64,000 nucleotides of DNA from an uncultured Lutibacter sp. (GTDB lineage: Bacteria; Bacteroidota; Bacteroidia; Flavobacteriales; Flavobacteriaceae), in contig NZ_CANLZZ010000009.1 of the NCBI RefSeq assembly GCF_947495725.1, forward strand, positions 1 through 64,000, written 5' to 3'. The notes below the pieces were generated by a model. That model ran no database searches, was not told where the DNA came from, and was given only the letters and a program-made list of their open reading frames with translations. Shown one piece after another: positions 43,528 through 51,375 of this stretch (its first letter is position 1; each line of letters opens with the position of its first letter). The translations under genes and the position numbers were made by a program.

Positions 43528-43911
43528 CTAAAATCCGGTTTTTATAGAAACTATTAATAAACCCCAACCAATAATTAAAAATAAACCGCCAAGAGGTGTT
43601 ATTGGACCTAAAAATTTCAATTTTCTGTTTTTTGCAGAAGAAATAACCAACCCATATATACTAAAAGAAAATAATAAGATTCCAATTATAAAACTGTAAA
43701 CCATATATGTTTCTGAAGTAGTTTCAAAATTAAAATTGAATCCAATTATTAAAAGTACAATAGCGTGGTACATTTGATATTTTACACCAGTTTCAAAACT
43801 TTTTAGTTGCTCTTCTGATAGTATTTTTTTTAAAGCGTGAGCTCCAAAAGCTCCAAAAATTACCGATAATCCTCCTAAAATACTTGCCGTAATTAATGTA
43901 AATTGTTCCAT
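43528..43911 (-). CDS. DUF423 family membrane protein
   Basis: 127 residues, four transmembrane segments. The N-terminus LGGLSVIFGAFGAHALKKILSEEQLKSFETGVKYQMYHAIVLL is the DUF423 (YgdD/YwdK) signature; the C-terminus has FLGPITPLGGLFLIIGW. Inner membrane, function unknown. It is separated from the gatB/aspS gene by a terminator, so it has its own promoter. Confidence 0.9.
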   Translation of the reverse strand: MEQFTLITASILGGLSVIFGAFGAHALKKILSEEQLKSFETGVKYQMYHAIVLLIIGFNFNFETTSETYMVYSFIIGILLFSFSIYGLVISSAKNRKLKFLGPITPLGGLFLIIGWGLLIVSIKTGF

Positions 43912-44000: not shown

Positions 44001-47000
44001 TTATCTAATAACTTTCACATTTTGTTCTTCAATCTTTTTATCTGATAATAGGGAAGGGGCTCCAAAAAGTAAATCTTCACTTGTTCCTGTTTTAGGAAAT
44101 GCCATTACATCTCTAATAGAGTTCTTTTTCTCTAGTATCATCATTAACCGATCAACTCCCCAAGCAATTCCACCGTGTGGAGGCGCACCATATTGGAAAG
44201 CTTTGTACATAGTTCCAACACTTTTTATCATTTCTTCTTTATTGTAACCCATATTTCTATAAGTTGCTTCTAAAATTTCGGACTTATGTGCACGAACTGA
44301 TCCTCCACCAATTTCAAATCCATTTAAAATTAAGTCGTATTGTTGAGCTATAATTGTTCCAATTTCATCTTCATTTCCGTTCATATGCTTTTCTAAATCG
44401 TAAATTGCTGGCATAGAAAACGGATTGTGTGTAAATGTCCATCTTCCTTCATCTGTTTTTTCAAACATTGGAAAATCTACAACCCAAGCAGGTCTTAATT
44501 CTTTAGGATTTATTAAGCGTAATAGTTTACCCATTTCTTGACGCACTGCATCTAAAGCTTTATTAGCTGTTGCATAATCGGCAGCAGAAAAGAATACAAT
44601 ATCACCAACTTGAGCATTGGTTGCAGCAATAATTTTTGCAGCAATTTCTTCGCCTAAAAACTTAATAATAGGCGATTGTAAATCGTTTTCATTTACAATA
44701 ATATAAGCCAATCCACCAAGTCCATTAAATTGTGCAATAGCAGTTAAATTCTCGATCTGACCTTTAGTCATTCGCTTTCCACCTTGTTCTTTTGCAGAAA
44801 CTCTAATACATTTAACAATTCCGCCATCTTCAATTGGTTTACTAAAAACTTGGAATGTTGTATCTTTTACAATATCAGTAATATCTTGCATTTGTAAACC
44901 GTAGCGTAAATCTGGTCTGTCACAACCATATTTATCCATTGCGTCTTTATAGGTAATTACCTCAAATGGACGTAAAATCCATTTTTTACCATATATTTTT
45001 TTAACTATTTCATTAAACATTTTAGTGTTTAAATCTATAATTTGCTGCATACTTGCATAGGCCATTTCAATATCTAATTGTGTAAATTCGGGCTGACGAT
45101 CACCACGAGAATCTTCATCTCTAAAACAACGTGCAACTTGGAAATATTTTTCATAGCCACTAACCATTAACATTTGTTTAAATTGTTGAGGTGCTTGTGG
45201 TAAAGTGTAAAAACTTCCAGCTTGTTTACGAGTTGGAACTATAAATTCACGTGCCCCTTCATCTGTTCCGGCACTTAAAATAGGTGTTTCAATTTCTAAA
45301 AACTCTTCTTCATCTAAAATATCACGTAACAATTTTATAACCTTATGTCGGTTTACAATTGCTCTTTTTACATCATCGTTTCTATGATCTAAAAACTTGT
45401 ATTGAAAACGAACATTTTCGTTTGTTTTTGTTGCCCTCTTAATTTCAAAAGGTAATGTTTTAGAAAGGTTTAAAATATCTAATTCAGAAGTTTCTAATTC
45501 AATTTTCCCTGTACGTAAACTCGGGTTAAAATCATCTTCATTTCTAACAACCACAATTCCTGTTACACTTATTACAGATTCTGGTTTAAGTTTTACTAAT
45601 TCGTCTAAATTTGGAAATGATTCTCTGCTTAAACGAACTTGGAAAACCTCTTGACTTGAATCACGTAAATCAATAAAAATAAGTTCTCCGTGGTCACGCA
45701 CACTAGCAACCCAACCAGCCAAAGTTACTTTTTCTGAAACCGTTGCATTTGATAAATCAGTGATTTTATGAGTTCTATAATTATCTTTAATAACAATAGG
45801 AATTTCTGGTAGCGCATCTTCCAATTCAACCTTTTCGGCCGAAACTTTTGCTTTTGGAAGTTCACCAAAAGTTTTTTTCTTTTCAGAAATTGCAGCAGCA
45901 CCCAAAGTATCAATAATATTCTGACGAATAACTTTTCCTGAAGCACCTTTACCAATAATAGCTATTACTTTACCAACTAAAATACCTGCTTTTCCTTGGT
46001 TTCCAGCTTTAATTTCATCTGCTACAACTTTATTTTCTGAAATTACTTTAGAAATTACTTCATTAATCTTCTCTTCTGAAATAGTGTTTTCTTCAAAGTA
46101 TTTATTGTAGTCAAACGTTCGGTCAACTAAATAAGCTGTTATTGCATTTTGAACAAGAACCGCAGTAATTTTCTCTGCTTTAAATAATTGGAAAATTTCT
46201 ATTAAATGGTTTATGTTATTAATTTTGGCATAATCTTCAGCTTTGATATTATTTGCTAAAGTTTTAGCAACAAACGAAGGATCTTTTAACTCATTATTAA
46301 TTGCAACAAAAGTTTGCGAACGCAATGAATCGGCTGTGAAAAACTTAGCATCTTGTGGTAGTACTCCACCACCAATTAAAATTGATTCCACAGCATAAGG
46401 AAGTACACTAGTATCAACTTTAATTTCTTCAATTTCTTTTTTTATGCTAACAAACGGTAAATCTGGTTCAGAAATAAAGCGGTAATCTGCTTCAAATTCT
46501 TTTTTACGCATTGTTTTAGTTTGCTTTAAATCTGCATCCCATAAAACGGTTGTTTGATCGGGTCTAAATTCTTTATGTTCAATGTAATAATTAAATTGTT
46601 TTTCAACTTCTTCTTTTAATGCATCAACCATAAACTTAAACGAGTTTAAGTTTTTAATTTCTGTTCGTGGATTTAAATCGTAGCTACGTTTTTTACGAAT
46701 AGAAACAGAAACGTCCGATTTAAATTCTCCTTTTTCTAAGTTAGCCTCAGAAATTCCTAAGTTTTGTACAATTCGTTGAATGTACTGTGCATAGGTAGAA
46801 GCATCTTCAATATTGCGAATACAAGGATCTGTCACAATTTCAATAAGAGGAACACCAGCTTTATTAAAATCTACTAACGAAATATTTTTTTCGTGCACTA
46901 GTTTTGCAGCATCTTCCTCAATATGAACTTGTGTTAAATTTACAGTAAATTGTGAACCATCATTTCTAAAACACGAAACTTCACCATCTGGAATTACCGG

Positions 47001-47330
47001 ATTGTGATACTGTGTAATTTGAATGTTTTTCGGGTTGTCTGGGTATTCGTAATGTTTTCTATCCCAAGATATTACTTCGTTTTTAAAGGTGGATTTTACA
47101 GCTTTTCCAAAATAAATAGCTTTAGAAATTGCTTCTTTATTTATAGATGGTAAAACTCCCATTTGCCCAGTACATACTGAACATATATTTTCGTTTGGTG
47201 TTTCAATTTCTTGATTTGGACAAGAACAAAACAACTTCGTTTTGGTATTTAATCGAACGTGTGTTTCAAGTCCGATTACCAATTCTAAATCGTGCGCTTT
47301 TATAGCGGCGGTTAATTGTTCCAATTCCAT
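44001..47330 (-). CDS. gatB/aspS: GatB-AspRS fusion: amidotransferase subunit B joined to aspartyl-tRNA synthetase
   Basis: 1109 residues in one uninterrupted frame. Residues 1 to about 490 are GatB: ELVIGLETHVRLNTK, zinc cysteines in FCSCPN...CSVCTGQMGVLP, and a YqeY-like tail ending SGKVIRQNIIDTLG. After a linker, about 515-1109 is a bacterial-type AspRS: OB-fold anticodon domain (VTLAGWVASVRDHGELIFIDLRD), class II motif 2 FRDEDSRGDRQPEFTQLD, GAD insertion, motif 3 GGIAWGVDRLMMIL. His547 in RDHGE matches the His31 position linked to relaxed tRNA-Asn recognition in Pseudomonas AspRS (from memory); E. coli AspRS has Leu there. So the fusion probably charges tRNA-Asn with Asp and amidates it in one complex. 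It overlaps gatA by one base. Confidence 0.93.
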   Translation of the reverse strand: MELEQLTAAIKAHDLELVIGLETHVRLNTKTKLFCSCPNQEIETPNENICSVCTGQMGVLPSINKEAISKAIYFGKAVKSTFKNEVISWDRKHYEYPDNPKNIQITQYHNPVIPDGEVSCFRNDGSQFTVNLTQVHIEEDAAKLVHEKNISLVDFNKAGVPLIEIVTDPCIRNIEDASTYAQYIQRIVQNLGISEANLEKGEFKSDVSVSIRKKRSYDLNPRTEIKNLNSFKFMVDALKEEVEKQFNYYIEHKEFRPDQTTVLWDADLKQTKTMRKKEFEADYRFISEPDLPFVSIKKEIEEIKVDTSVLPYAVESILIGGGVLPQDAKFFTADSLRSQTFVAINNELKDPSFVAKTLANNIKAEDYAKINNINHLIEIFQLFKAEKITAVLVQNAITAYLVDRTFDYNKYFEENTISEEKINEVISKVISENKVVADEIKAGNQGKAGILVGKVIAIIGKGASGKVIRQNIIDTLGAAAISEKKKTFGELPKAKVSAEKVELEDALPEIPIVIKDNYRTHKITDLSNATVSEKVTLAGWVASVRDHGELIFIDLRDSSQEVFQVRLSRESFPNLDELVKLKPESVISVTGIVVVRNEDDFNPSLRTGKIELETSELDILNLSKTLPFEIKRATKTNENVRFQYKFLDHRNDDVKRAIVNRHKVIKLLRDILDEEEFLEIETPILSAGTDEGAREFIVPTRKQAGSFYTLPQAPQQFKQMLMVSGYEKYFQVARCFRDEDSRGDRQPEFTQLDIEMAYASMQQIIDLNTKMFNEIVKKIYGKKWILRPFEVITYKDAMDKYGCDRPDLRYGLQMQDITDIVKDTTFQVFSKPIEDGGIVKCIRVSAKEQGGKRMTKGQIENLTAIAQFNGLGGLAYIIVNENDLQSPIIKFLGEEIAAKIIAATNAQVGDIVFFSAADYATANKALDAVRQEMGKLLRLINPKELRPAWVVDFPMFEKTDEGRWTFTHNPFSMPAIYDLEKHMNGNEDEIGTIIAQQYDLILNGFEIGGGSVRAHKSEILEATYRNMGYNKEEMIKSVGTMYKAFQYGAPPHGGIAWGVDRLMMILEKKNSIRDVMAFPKTGTSEDLLFGAPSLLSDKKIEEQNVKVIR

Positions 47331-48727
47331 TATATTGTTTCTTTTAAGAAGTTAGCAAACTTCAATATTGTTTGTTCTTGATTTTTTGCAGCTGTAATTT
47401 GTAAACCAGTTTCCGTTCCTTGCGGTACAGTAAGTGTAGGTAATTGACCTAAACTAAAACCAACTGTATAAGCATCTGATAAATACATTGCTAAAGGATC
47501 TTTTAAACTATCACCAATTTTTGGAGGTGAATTTGGTGTAACGGGAGAAATGATTAAATCAACTTCTTCAAAATCCTTTTCAAAATTTTGTGAAATTTGA
47601 TCTCTTAAAGCCAAACCTTTTAAATAAATTTCATCTGAAAATCCCTGAGATAAAACTTGATTTCCCCCAACTATTCGTCGTTTAGATTCTTCTGAAAAAT
47701 TTTCGGAGCGAGTTATTGAATAAGTGTCTTTCAAATTTTCACCTTCAATTCTGTTTCCGTAATTGGTTCCATCTAATCGTGATAAGTTAGAAGCAGTTTC
47801 GGCCATTGCCAAAGTATAATACGTTGAAACTAAAGTATCAGATTTAAAGAAATCTAATTCTCTTACTTCTATTCCCGTTGCTTTTATTTTTTCAATAGCA
47901 GCTAAAAAGTCAGCTTTTATTTTTGGATCAATTGCGTCGTTATCAATAAAGTTTTTAAAGTAACCAACAGTTTTTACATTGTTAGTTTTAATAGCTTCTT
48001 CATTAATTTGAGAAGATGTGTGTGTGGTTTGATCTTTGCCATCTTTTCCACTCATTACATTAAGTACAATACGAATATCTTCAATAGTTTTTGCTAAAGG
48101 TCCCACACAGTCTGTAGAGGACGCATAAGCCATAATTCCATATCTAGAAATACGACCATAAGTTGGTTTTAAGCCATAAATTTTATTGTAACCAGCCGGC
48201 TGGCGAATAGAACCTCCAGTATCTCCACCAATTGAAAAAACAGTGTAATCTTTTGCTACATTTACTGCCGATCCACCACTTGATCCTCCAGCAACCAATT
48301 CCGGATTAATAGCATTTTTTACGGCGCCAAAAATAGTATTTTCACTTGAAGAACCGTGACCAAAACTATCACAGTTTTCTTTTACTAATGGAATTGCTCC
48401 TGCATCTAATAGTTTTTGAATGGCAGTTGCCGTGTAAGCCGATTTGTAATTTTTTAACAAGTCAGAACTAGCTGTAGTGTAAGTTCCTTGAACCATATAT
48501 ACATCTTTAATTCCAAAAGGAATTCCTTCCAACAAACCAATTTCTTCACCGTTTGCAATTTTAGCATCAACCTTTGTAGCTAAAGCCAAAGCAGTATCTT
48601 CTAATAATGAATTAACCGAGTTGTAGGTGTTCTTTTTTAGTAAATCTAATCTCTCTTGAACTAAGGTTGTACAAGATATTTCCTTGTTCACCAATTGCTG
48701 GTGAAGCTGTTTTATTTGCGAATCCAT
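47330..48727 (-). CDS. gatA: Asp-tRNA(Asn)/Glu-tRNA(Gln) amidotransferase subunit A
   Basis: 465 residues. Amidase-signature family with the Ser-cisSer-Lys triad: Lys in GIPFGIKDVYMVQG, cis-Ser in LVAGGSSGGSAVNVA, nucleophilic Ser in IGGDTGGSIRQPAGYNKIYGLKPTYGR. GatA hydrolyses glutamine and channels ammonia to GatB. The start lies one base after the gatC stop region, and its stop overlaps the ATG of the fusion gene (TAATG), so all three genes are translated together. Slightly shorter than typical GatA (about 480). Confidence 0.95.
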   Translation of the reverse strand: MDSQIKQLHQQLVNKEISCTTLVQERLDLLKKNTYNSVNSLLEDTALALATKVDAKIANGEEIGLLEGIPFGIKDVYMVQGTYTTASSDLLKNYKSAYTATAIQKLLDAGAIPLVKENCDSFGHGSSSENTIFGAVKNAINPELVAGGSSGGSAVNVAKDYTVFSIGGDTGGSIRQPAGYNKIYGLKPTYGRISRYGIMAYASSTDCVGPLAKTIEDIRIVLNVMSGKDGKDQTTHTSSQINEEAIKTNNVKTVGYFKNFIDNDAIDPKIKADFLAAIEKIKATGIEVRELDFFKSDTLVSTYYTLAMAETASNLSRLDGTNYGNRIEGENLKDTYSITRSENFSEESKRRIVGGNQVLSQGFSDEIYLKGLALRDQISQNFEKDFEEVDLIISPVTPNSPPKIGDSLKDPLAMYLSDAYTVGFSLGQLPTLTVPQGTETGLQITAAKNQEQTILKFANFLKETI

Positions 48728-48728
48728 A

Positions 48729-48998
48729 TTAGTCTTCTATCACTTTTGAAACTACTAAATACCCGTTTTTTTCTTTTGGAAAGTTTTCTTTAATAATTTG
48801 TTTTTCCAAAATTGGGCTCTCTATAACAACATCTTCTCTTAAATCATTTACTGAAACACAATTATAATTGACATTATTAGAAGAGTTATTATTATTTGGT
48901 TGTGCATTTTTAATTACCTCAAATAATTTGTTCACGGTCTCTGAGGGCTGTGCTCCTTTAATACTCGACAATATGTCGACTGTCATTATTTTACTCAT
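48729..48998 (-). CDS. gatC: amidotransferase subunit C, divergent
   Basis: 89 residues. The C-terminal half matches GatC (VNDLREDVVIES...IIKENFPKEKNGYLVVSKVIED). The N-terminal half is unusual: the normal helical hairpin is shortened and an asparagine-rich stretch (NAQPNNNNSSNNVNYN) stands where the second helix would be. GatC normally braces the GatA-GatB interface. The call rests on the C-terminal motif and on the operon with gatA and gatB/aspS. Confidence 0.82.
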   Translation of the reverse strand: MSKIMTVDILSSIKGAQPSETVNKLFEVIKNAQPNNNNSSNNVNYNCVSVNDLREDVVIESPILEKQIIKENFPKEKNGYLVVSKVIED

Positions 48999-49251: not shown

Positions 49252-51375
49252 ATGCTATCAAAAGACCTACAAGAGAAATTACAACCTACATTAAAAACCT
49301 ATTTTGGTTACGATACTTTTAGAGATGAGCAACAAAAAATTGTAGAATCGGTACTTCAAAAAAGGGATAATTTAGTTATTATGCCAACTGGTGGAGGTAA
49401 GTCCATTTGTTTTCAATTACCAGCATTGTTATTTGAAGGCTTAACACTTGTAATATCGCCATTAATAGCCCTAATGAAAGACCAAGTTGATGGTTTAAAT
49501 GCGAATGGAATTTCAGCAGATTTTTACAATAGCAGTCAAGAAAGTTTTGAGCAAGAGGAAGTGTTTGAAAAAATATTTAGTAAAGAATTGAAGTTGTTAT
49601 ATGTTGCACCAGAGAGTTTGTCATTTCTTCAAAATATTTTAACAGAAGAGCATATTAGTTGTGTGGCTATAGATGAAGCGCACTGTATTTCTTCTTGGGG
49701 ACACGATTTTCGTCCATCCTATCAGCAACTTGGTTTTTTAAAACAAACACTTCCAAATACGCCAATTATTGCATTAACTGCAACTGCAGATAAAGCTACA
49801 AGAGCAGATATTGTTGAGCAATTAAATATTCCTAAAGCAACACAGTTTATTTCTTCTTTTGATAGAAAAAATATAGAATTAGAAGTTCGTATTGCAAATG
49901 ATCGAATTTCTCAAATAATTAAATTTATTAGAAAGCAACCAAATGAGTCGGGTATTATTTATTGCTTAAGTAGAAAAGGAACGGAACAAACTGCGGCAAA
50001 ATTAAAACAAAATGGAATTAATGCGGCGCCTTACCACGCAGGATTAAATTTTGCAGAACGTTCTAAAACACAAGAAGATTTTATTTATGATAAAACAAAA
50101 GTAGTTTGCGCTACTATTGCTTTTGGAATGGGGATTGACAAATCCAATGTACGATGGGTTATTCATTTTAATATGCCTAAAAACATTGAAGGTTATTACC
50201 AGGAAATTGGGCGTTGTGGAAGAGATGGATTAAAAGCAAATGCCTTATTATTTCATAGTTATTCCGATGTAATTCAGTTGAAAAAATTTATGAGTGGAGC
50301 TTCAAATGAAGAGGTTCAGGCTGCAAAATTGGAAAGAATGAAGCAGTTTTCTGAAGCAACTACTTGTAGAAGAAAAATTTTATTGAGTTATTTTGGTGAA
50401 TTATTAGCTAAAAATTGTGGTAATTGTGATGTATGTAAAAACCCTCCACAATTTTTTAATGGTACTATTATAGCTCAAAAAGCACTTTCGGTAATTACAC
50501 GGTTAAAGGAAAGCGAAGCTATTGGTATGGTAATTGATGTATTAAGAGGTGCACATAATGCATCAGTTTTAGAAAAAGGATACGACAAGTTGAAATCCCA
50601 CGGAGTTGGAAGTGATATTTCTTGGAGAGATTGGCAGCAATATTTAATTCAACTAACAAATCAAGGTTATTGTGAAATTGCGTTTCATAAAAATAACGCA
50701 CTGCAATTAACTAGTTTTTCTAAAAAAGTATTATTTGAAAATGAGCAAGTTAATTTAACAAAACCAGTTGAGTATAAAGAACCAAGTGTTTCTGAAAAAT
50801 CAATAAAAGTTGCAAAAACACCAAAAGCTAAGAAAGATTCATTATTTGAACGATTGAGGAAATTACGACAAGAAATTGCTTTAGCAGAGAATATTCCGGC
50901 ATATTTGGTTTTTAGTGATGCTTCGCTTAAGGAAATGGAAAGAGCAAGGCCAATGAGTGAATCGGATTTTTTAGAAATAAGTGGAGTAGGGCGCCGAAAA
51001 TTAGAGGTTTATGGAGAAGATTTTATAGCGGAAATTATAGCTTTTTCAAACGAGAAAAGAAAAACAAAAAAAAAGAAAGATACACACAAAATTACATACG
51101 ATTTATATAAAGAAGGTTTAACAATTGATGAAATTGCTGATAAGCGTAGTTTAAAATCGACAACTATCTTTTCACATTTGGCTTTGCTGTATACCGAGGG
51201 AAAGGATATTGAAATTTATGATTTTGTAACAAAGGAAGAAGTTGAGAAAATAAGACAAACAAAAGATGAGCTAGAAAGTCCTCAAGCTTTAAAGCCATAT
51301 TACGAGCATTTGAACGCAGAAATTGAATATTTTAAAATTAGACTTGCATTAACTATTATTGATAGGGAAACGTAA
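49252..51375 (+). CDS. recQ: ATP-dependent DNA helicase RecQ
   Basis: 707 residues. Superfamily 2 helicase core: motif 0 FRDEQQKIV, Walker A in MPTGGGKS (44-51), DEAH box with the aromatic loop (IDEAHCISSWGHDFRPSY), motif VI QEIGRCGRDG. Zinc-binding CRRKILL...NCGNCDVC and a winged-helix RQC domain follow, then HRDC (about 535-605: RLRKLRQEIALAENIPAYLVFSDASL) and a C-terminal helix-turn-helix (KRSLKSTTIFSHLALLYTEG). It unwinds recombination and replication intermediates 3' to 5'. Longer than E. coli RecQ (about 610) because of the C-terminal domain, as is normal for Bacteroidota. Confidence 0.96.
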   Translation: MLSKDLQEKLQPTLKTYFGYDTFRDEQQKIVESVLQKRDNLVIMPTGGGKSICFQLPALLFEGLTLVISPLIALMKDQVDGLNANGISADFYNSSQESFEQEEVFEKIFSKELKLLYVAPESLSFLQNILTEEHISCVAIDEAHCISSWGHDFRPSYQQLGFLKQTLPNTPIIALTATADKATRADIVEQLNIPKATQFISSFDRKNIELEVRIANDRISQIIKFIRKQPNESGIIYCLSRKGTEQTAAKLKQNGINAAPYHAGLNFAERSKTQEDFIYDKTKVVCATIAFGMGIDKSNVRWVIHFNMPKNIEGYYQEIGRCGRDGLKANALLFHSYSDVIQLKKFMSGASNEEVQAAKLERMKQFSEATTCRRKILLSYFGELLAKNCGNCDVCKNPPQFFNGTIIAQKALSVITRLKESEAIGMVIDVLRGAHNASVLEKGYDKLKSHGVGSDISWRDWQQYLIQLTNQGYCEIAFHKNNALQLTSFSKKVLFENEQVNLTKPVEYKEPSVSEKSIKVAKTPKAKKDSLFERLRKLRQEIALAENIPAYLVFSDASLKEMERARPMSESDFLEISGVGRRKLEVYGEDFIAEIIAFSNEKRKTKKKKDTHKITYDLYKEGLTIDEIADKRSLKSTTIFSHLALLYTEGKDIEIYDFVTKEEVEKIRQTKDELESPQALKPYYEHLNAEIEYFKIRLALTIIDRET

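Follow-up and report, generated by a model that had tools for sequence, protein, structure and literature searches.

A transamidosome is a ribonucleoprotein complex built from separate components, and the question raised by the locus described here is what a gene does that holds two of those components in one reading frame. The gene lies in a 64,000 nucleotide stretch of DNA from an uncultured Lutibacter sp. of the Flavobacteriaceae (assembly GCF_947495725.1, contig NZ_CANLZZ010000009.1, positions 1 to 64,000 of the forward strand), which as a whole is referred to below as the window. It joins GatB, a subunit of the amidotransferase GatCAB, to an aspartyl-tRNA synthetase (AspRS), and it stands in an operon with gatA and a gatC-like gene. 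Our answer is that the operon probably encodes a covalent asparagine (Asn) transamidosome, which would make asparagine on tRNA in flavobacteria that lack the asparagine synthetases AsnA and AsnB. The fusion gene and its parts are as follows.

44001..47330, reverse strand: gatB::aspS fusion gene, 1109 amino acids, from the open reading frame and its domain matches
45900..47330, reverse strand: GatB part, residues 1–477, with a GatB/GatE catalytic domain (17–300) and a GatB_YqeY tail domain (342–473)
45783..45899, reverse strand: linker, residues 478–516, predicted to be disordered at 479–506
44004..45782, reverse strand: bacterial-type AspRS part, residues 517–1109, with an OB fold (535–607), a class II core and a GAD domain (829–926)
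45690..45692, reverse strand: codon of His547, in the column of Pseudomonas aeruginosa His31
45534..45536, reverse strand: codon of Asp599, in the column of P. aeruginosa Gly82, which is Lys in Escherichia coli

The open reading frame call gives a single frame that starts with ATG and contains no internal stops. Residues 14–477 match the GatB models NF004012 (395.5 bits, cut-off 338) and TIGR00133 (339.9 bits, cut-off 314.8), with four further GatB models of NCBIfam staying below their cut-offs; the nearest solved relative of this part is the Aquifex GatB (3h0l), whose cysteine cluster that of the fusion resembles. Residues 517–1108 match a bacterial AspRS with the GAD insertion (NF001750, 711.2 bits, cut-off 443), and the top sequence match of this part in the Protein Data Bank (PDB), at 452 bits, is 4wj3_M, the non-discriminating AspRS of the P. 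aeruginosa Asn-transamidosome. The linker between them is variable in length, measuring 45–60 residues from the GKGxxGK to the YRTH landmark in the 88 of 92 fusions that have both. An AlphaFold model built from 35 aligned sequences (mean predicted local distance difference test score, pLDDT, 76.8; predicted template modelling score 0.52) consists of two folded modules, and the connecting stretch 479–506 has a pLDDT below 50. When this model was searched with Foldseek the first structure returned was the P. aeruginosa non-discriminating AspRS 4wj4 and the fourth was 4wj3 (over the whole AspRS part, at a root-mean-square deviation of about 24 Å, so the AspRS core is not well placed in the model). 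GatB structures followed the AspRS hits, among them three transamidosomes (3al0, 3kfu and 4wj3).

We scanned one genome per species and kept the best 80 of at least 530 related stretches, chosen by similarity; the number of fusion loci is a lower bound and speaks for none of the other 450. All 80 are fusions, with three (L132, L197 and L200) cut by contig ends, and a fusion is also found in 14 of 22 chosen genomes, the copy of G146 being cut by a contig end. Since the reading frame runs uninterrupted across the junction in 80/80 retained loci, a frameshift or assembly artefact was rejected; taken with the 14 chosen genomes, this argues that the fusion is no sequencing accident. An earlier note on this DNA had predicted a single-frame GatB–AspRS fusion, and the reading frame, the domain matches and the open junction in other genomes agree with it; two genes separated by a frameshift, which the note saw as fatal to its idea, are not what the 80 loci contain. 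Its belief that annotation pipelines record the fusion found no such backing, as the sole fusion model among 24 NCBIfam matches is NF009460, an AspRS–GatC fusion, which scores 465.9 bits against a cut-off of 1379 over the AspRS part alone and to which the protein does not belong.

Does the AspRS part look like an enzyme that mischarges tRNA-Asn? The earlier note had equated His547 with His31 of the Pseudomonas enzyme, and alignment confirms this: His547, within RDHG, falls in the column of His31 of the P. aeruginosa non-discriminating AspRS (chain residue 39, offset 8), where E. coli has Leu. The column is His in all 92 fusion sequences, which come from 90 genomes (G041 is L206 and G117 is L205), and by this signature they would count as non-discriminating AspRSs. 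We take the His31 and Gly82 columns to be tied to tRNA-Asn mischarging in P. aeruginosa; the Gly82 signature comes from one enzyme and is no definition. In the Gly82 column the fusions have Asp (86), Ser (5) or Glu (1) and never Lys. Among 18 stand-alone AspRSs from this taxonomic class (10 of them encoded in genomes with the fusion and eight in others), the His31 column is Lys in 15, Leu in two and Met in one, and the Gly82 column is Lys in every one. Lys also fills the His31 column in the stand-alone AspRS of each of the 14 fusion genomes; the four that lie outside the set of 18 read RDKG or RNKG.

The enzymes found alongside the fusion suggest what such mischarging would be for. A profile search of the window's genome found the asparaginyl- and glutaminyl-tRNA synthetases AsnRS (612.9 bits) and GlnRS (739 bits), the remaining AsnRS-like match being LysRS, and the genome also has a separate 582 amino acid AspRS that reads RDKG in place of RDHG. 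Since AsnRS, GlnRS and a separate AspRS are present, the supply of Gln-tRNA and Asp-tRNA is independent of the operon. The profile search of this genome turned up no AsnB above the cut-off, its two weak matches covering model positions 1–170 (GlmS) and 115–209 (a 643 amino acid frame), and AsnA gave no match there. Its 39 tRNA matches include one tRNA-Asn and two tRNA-Asp; the first pair is U1-A72 in tRNA-Asn, G1-C72 in tRNA-Asp and U1-A72 in tRNA-Gln. An excerpt of PMC9976931 states that U1-A72 allows amidation and that G1-C72 blocks it. The traits of a tRNA-dependent Asn pathway are therefore all present in the window's own genome: no AsnA or AsnB over the cut-off, U1-A72, a putative GatCAB (with a weakly matching GatC, and GatA under its cut-off) and an AspRS that is non-discriminating by signature.

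The same set of enzymes recurs in the other fusion genomes. GlnRS is over the cut-off in 14/14 and a stand-alone AspRS is kept in 14/14, while AsnRS is over the cut-off in 12/14 and was not found in G219 and G241. In these two genomes the fusion would be the sole route to Asn-tRNA-Asn, because AsnRS was not found over the cut-off. As a side observation, G082, a close relative of both, has AsnRS. GlnRS was also seen in frames of 710 (G400:C2:62824-64401) and 705 (G091:C2:118614-120191) amino acids, compared with about 550–580, and an extra domain is possible in that genus.

The absence of AsnB was then compared across 35 genomes of the window's family, 19 of its genus and 16 others. Six of them have the fusion (G000, G009, G012, G013, G018 and G400, the last being Flavobacterium sp. 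7A). An E. coli-like AsnB is present in 0/6 of these and in 27/29 of the fusion-free genomes, and all 27 proteins were checked by sequence and are 63–68% identical to E. coli AsnB. The two fusion-free exceptions are G015, which is 62% complete, and G180, which has a 36%-identical form; in G004 the AsnB begins at a contig edge. In four of the six fusion genomes nothing in the AsnB family exceeds the cut-off. The lack of an E. coli-like AsnB falls in two genera, Lutibacter and Flavobacterium. A GlmS tree was made from 34 of the 35 genomes and an outgroup, leaving out G008, whose GlmS begins VCGI and was missed by the start motif; on it the fusion state changes four times. When the genomes were paired at random 200 times, AsnB followed the predicted direction in nearly all pairings. 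The likely job of the operon is tRNA-dependent Asn synthesis, because AsnA and AsnB were not found over the cut-off and the fusion and AsnB appear to exchange within the family.

This shifts the role that had been proposed. The earlier note had described a built-in transamidosome for charging tRNA-Asn, and as far as sequence can tell its logic would hold, with the role moved from charging tRNA-Asn to making Asn, because AsnRS is present and AsnA and AsnB were not found. The note had also said that a separate discriminating AspRS and an AsnRS, together with inactivity of the fusion on tRNA-Asn, would count against its idea. The first half of this applies, as a separate AspRS with discriminating-type residues and an AsnRS are indeed present. 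The idea survives it, since neither AsnA nor AsnB is found over the cut-off, which is the situation of Deinococcus, Thermus and Bdellovibrio. In these bacteria Asn is made on tRNA despite the presence of AsnRS, by a non-discriminating AspRS and GatCAB, as described in an excerpt of PMC4206432.

Several other members of the AsnB family were seen along the way. The AsnB-like paralogues of G009 and G400 were tried as E. coli-like AsnBs and rejected, as they lie on separate branches and share 28% and 30% identity with the E. coli enzyme; that of G009 sits among genes resembling a surface-sugar cluster. An AsnB-family paralogue (L036:4329-6029, L037:3706-5403) adjoins NeuC/NeuA-like sugar genes and is perhaps a surface-sugar amidotransferase. 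The E. coli-like AsnB genes at L280 (G124:C29:81500-86000) and L286 (G415:C1:2397800-2402200) each have a further AsnB-type gene, 45% identical, as a neighbour in the same phase; reading each pair as one frame of 1204 or 1221 amino acids was rejected, as there are two separate open reading frames. G091, G225 and G385 have a second AsnB form too, at 44–47% identity. In the complete genome G154 the AsnB (L281, G154:C1:285000-287700) has a stop ahead of E. coli residue 28 and an open frame only from that residue on.

An alternative is that tRNA-Asn is charged and amidated as proposed, with the complex serving as a back-up for Asn-tRNA or in a stress function and the lack of AsnB being a coincidence of descent. 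The AsnRS of 12/14 fusion genomes would fit such a use, as would the AsnB-like paralogues of G009 and G400, and the association with AsnB rests on only two well-supported independent pairs. A coincidence has to account, however, for an E. coli-like AsnB missing in 6/6 fusion genomes against 2/29 fusion-free ones, for this lack falling in two genera, and for the four genomes with no AsnB-family match over the cut-off. We consider this alternative unlikely.

The active site of the fused AspRS bears on whether it is still a synthetase. We compared 88 fusions with 20 references (the 18 stand-alone AspRSs and those of E. coli and P. aeruginosa), leaving out locus L200 at less than 1040 amino acids; which residues of the E. 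coli enzyme, whose numbers are used here, contact aspartate is our assumption. Near the aspartate site Ser193 is replaced by Ala (QSPQ to QAPQ) and His449 by Asn (HHPFT to HNPFS) in 88/88 fusions, which also differ in having Asp or Glu for Pro170 and Ala or Ser for Ile490. Glu171, Gln195, Lys198, Arg217, Arg222, Gln231, Asp233, His448, Glu482, Arg489 and Arg537 are kept in 88/88. This pattern suggests an active aspartate enzyme that is tuned otherwise than an ordinary AspRS, and the fixed changes are new as far as our literature searches show. It could also be read as a sign that the AspRS part is no longer a synthetase and serves just to bring tRNA-Asn to GatB, the mischarging being done by a different AspRS. 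The fixed changes, set against 20/20 references, lend that idea something; all other checked catalytic positions are kept, however, and the stand-alone AspRSs carry discriminating-type residues, which leaves no evident candidate for a different mischarging enzyme and makes the idea highly unlikely. Highly unlikely, too, is that Gln-tRNA-Gln is the main or a further product of the fused amidotransferase, with the AspRS part a passenger or plain second AspRS: GatCAB works on Glu-tRNA-Gln in many bacteria and the genome's own tRNA-Gln is U1-A72, but every one of the 14 fusion genomes has GlnRS and GatB is tied to AspRS, not GluRS, with the non-discriminating His in 92/92.

The two partners of the fusion in the operon lie upstream of it.

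47330..48727, reverse strand: gatA, 465 amino acids, glutaminase subunit, TIGR00132 at 439.7 bits, under the cut-off of 481.1
48729..48998, reverse strand: gatC-like gene, 89 amino acids, with a GatC C-terminal half (LREDVV...NGYLVVSKVIE) and an unusual conserved N-terminus

The last base of gatA, at 47330, is also the opening base of the fusion's ATG, and the gatC-like gene stops one base ahead of gatA. The top PDB match of GatA is 4wj3 (318 bits). Aligned to 4wj3_A, 3h0l_A and 2df4_A, it has Lys74, Ser149 and Ser173, which we take to be the amidase triad, and also the Tyr, Arg and Asp positions of what is presumably the glutamine pocket. With this triad and the AspRS positions kept in 88/88 fusions, both catalytic modules look complete on sequence. 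GatC usually packs around GatA and GatB. In the gatC-like protein similarity to GatC is confined to residues 22–88, with the N-terminus outside the match, and PF02686 stays below its cut-off at 19.9 bits. The N-terminal consensus, MsKiMTVDiLSSIKGAqpSEaVnkLFdvIKNA over 74 loci, is strongly conserved and unlike canonical GatC; the altered N-terminus may reflect the fused architecture. A similar gene is found by motif at 74/80 loci, and by eye at three Aquimarina loci, and an AlphaFold model from eight sequences (mean pLDDT 43.8) is uninformative. The operon with gatC and gatA that the earlier note had proposed is thus present, with gatC recognised weakly. In the window the operon is flanked by a DUF423 gene (43528–43911) and a recQ gene (49252–51375), and a search of the window with Rfam gave nothing at gathering score. 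At L095 (G082) the gatA upstream of the fusion is a 270 amino acid open stretch only, possibly broken or misassembled.

A number of points weigh against a covalent Asn-transamidosome as the source of asparagine. On the GlmS tree there are four independent fusion/AsnB pairs on the best tree and two on well-supported branches, with a sign test p of 0.5, so that the association falls short of significance because there are so few independent pairs. The AsnB of G154 is possibly broken, or has another start. The paralogues of G009 and G400 are over the cut-off, and so are AsnB-like paralogues in the genomes of f24, another family of the class, where the five sequences compared, from three of the eight genomes, are 27–33% identical to E. 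coli AsnB; the paralogues of G009, G400 and f24 might make Asn. G400 and the f24 genomes were left out of the AsnA search. The genomes of G219, G241 and G013 are 91%, 95% and 87% complete, and genes missing there may be gaps for that reason. Within the locus itself, the second signature residue is Asp instead of the P. aeruginosa Gly, several segments of the AspRS core in the AlphaFold model also have a pLDDT below 50, and TIGR00135 matches the gatC-like protein at 22 bits (cut-off 47.1) over model positions 36–93 only. Finally, U1-A72 tRNA-Asn was reported in 77/89 genera with AsnRS and GlnRS only, lacking GatCAB (excerpt of PMC4206432); being common in bacteria without GatCAB too, it merely permits the pathway.

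How would a covalent Asn-transamidosome work? The product of the operon would be a GatCAB whose GatB bears a second AspRS, of relaxed specificity, on a flexible tether, so that these two parts would need no assembly. The AspRS part would place aspartate on tRNA-Asn (U1-A72), and the charged 3′ end would then swing to the GatB part of its own polypeptide or of the dimer partner. There GatB would activate the aspartate side chain, and ammonia released by GatA from glutamine would amidate it to give Asn-tRNA-Asn. A dimeric particle with two GatCAB arms is expected because AspRSs are dimers. Charging of tRNA-Asp would be left to the ordinary AspRS, and use of free Asn to AsnRS.

The best 80 stretches come from genera such as Flavobacterium, Polaribacter, Lutibacter, Tamlana, Algibacter, Confluentibacter, Aestuariibaculum, Flavivirga, Wenyingzhuangia and Aquimarina. 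A survey of the class found a GatB match in 309/396 genomes; as it used best matches only, fusions whose GatB is of the canonical type may have been missed. Of 11 genomes with a best E-value from 1e-109 to 1e-102, 10 have a fusion and G227 has none; G182 and G360, just beyond this range, have none either, and G163 was left out of the check. More distant fusions (58–70% identical) are found in 8/8 f24 genomes with a GatB match. In eight further genomes (G085, G148, G160, G175, G186, G231, G311 and G328) the best GatB match has an E-value of about 1e-21 to 1e-24, possibly from GatB-tail/YqeY domains or remnants. Among plasmids, 51 records have a GatB match, all below 60% identity and at 30–35% in the eight shown.

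In the fusion tree the proteins of the window and of L. flavus form one group, which joins the Flavobacterium fusions (99/96) and not those of G012 and G018; in the GlmS tree the window's genome groups with these two (100/99). Constraining six Lutibacter fusions together was rejected (p 0.016, the group having been chosen once the tree was known). The window and Flavobacterium sp. 7A are 85.6% identical in the fusion, compared with 73.9% in GlmS and 81.4% in the stand-alone AspRS, and a motif search found recQ beside the operon in 3/69 loci longer than 11 kb, all Lutibacter. The conflict between trees, the excess identity and a recQ neighbour in Lutibacter only suggest, with moderate support, that the fusion moved by horizontal transfer. 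More tentatively, the fused AspRS may be a mischarger of tRNA-Asn only, giving no service to tRNA-Asp, as the Asn counterpart of GluRS2. Its retuned site (Ala for Ser193, Asn for His449) would then hand Asp-tRNA to its own GatB, and the unit would spread horizontally and let flavobacteria drop AsnB and, in some lineages, AsnRS. We regard this extended picture as possible rather than probable.

The closest known system is the P. aeruginosa Asn-transamidosome (4wj3), which likewise combines a bacterial-type AspRS carrying His31 with GatCAB. It has four GatB chains in 4wj3 and five AspRS chains over 4wj3 and 4wj4, presumably four and one, which fits a 1:1 tether. The P. aeruginosa AspRS is, we assume, a separate protein and the cell's only AspRS; here the AspRS is joined covalently to GatB and is accompanied by a second. 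Thermus thermophilus and Deinococcus radiodurans also have two AspRSs, but their second enzyme is archaeal-type, without GAD and unfused, whereas the one described here is bacterial-type, with GAD, and fused. Like the window's genome, Bdellovibrio bacteriovorus has AsnRS, GlnRS and GatCAB and lacks AsnA and AsnB (excerpt of PMC4206432); unlike it, it has a single, unfused AspRS. NF009460 (PRK12820) is similar by name in joining an AspRS covalently to an amidotransferase subunit, but the partner is GatC and presumably lies behind the AspRS, as the window's AspRS part covers model positions 26–612 of 723. The transamidosome of Mycobacterium tuberculosis formed only with tRNA present, according to an excerpt of PMC8406222. 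No description of a GatB–AspRS fusion was found in the literature searched, with most subscription journals lying outside it, and an earlier description is possible. The principle of a non-discriminating AspRS and GatCAB making Asn alongside AsnRS is already known; as far as our searches show, the link to GatB, its spread, the exchange with AsnB and the retuned AspRS are new.

A mischarging enzyme and an amidotransferase linked in one chain would make the channelling of Asp-tRNA-Asn, a dangerous intermediate, directly testable. If the reading of the operon as a covalent Asn-transamidosome is true, it explains how flavobacteria without asparagine synthetase obtain their asparagine, and it would correct metabolic reconstructions in which such flavobacteria are called asparagine auxotrophs.

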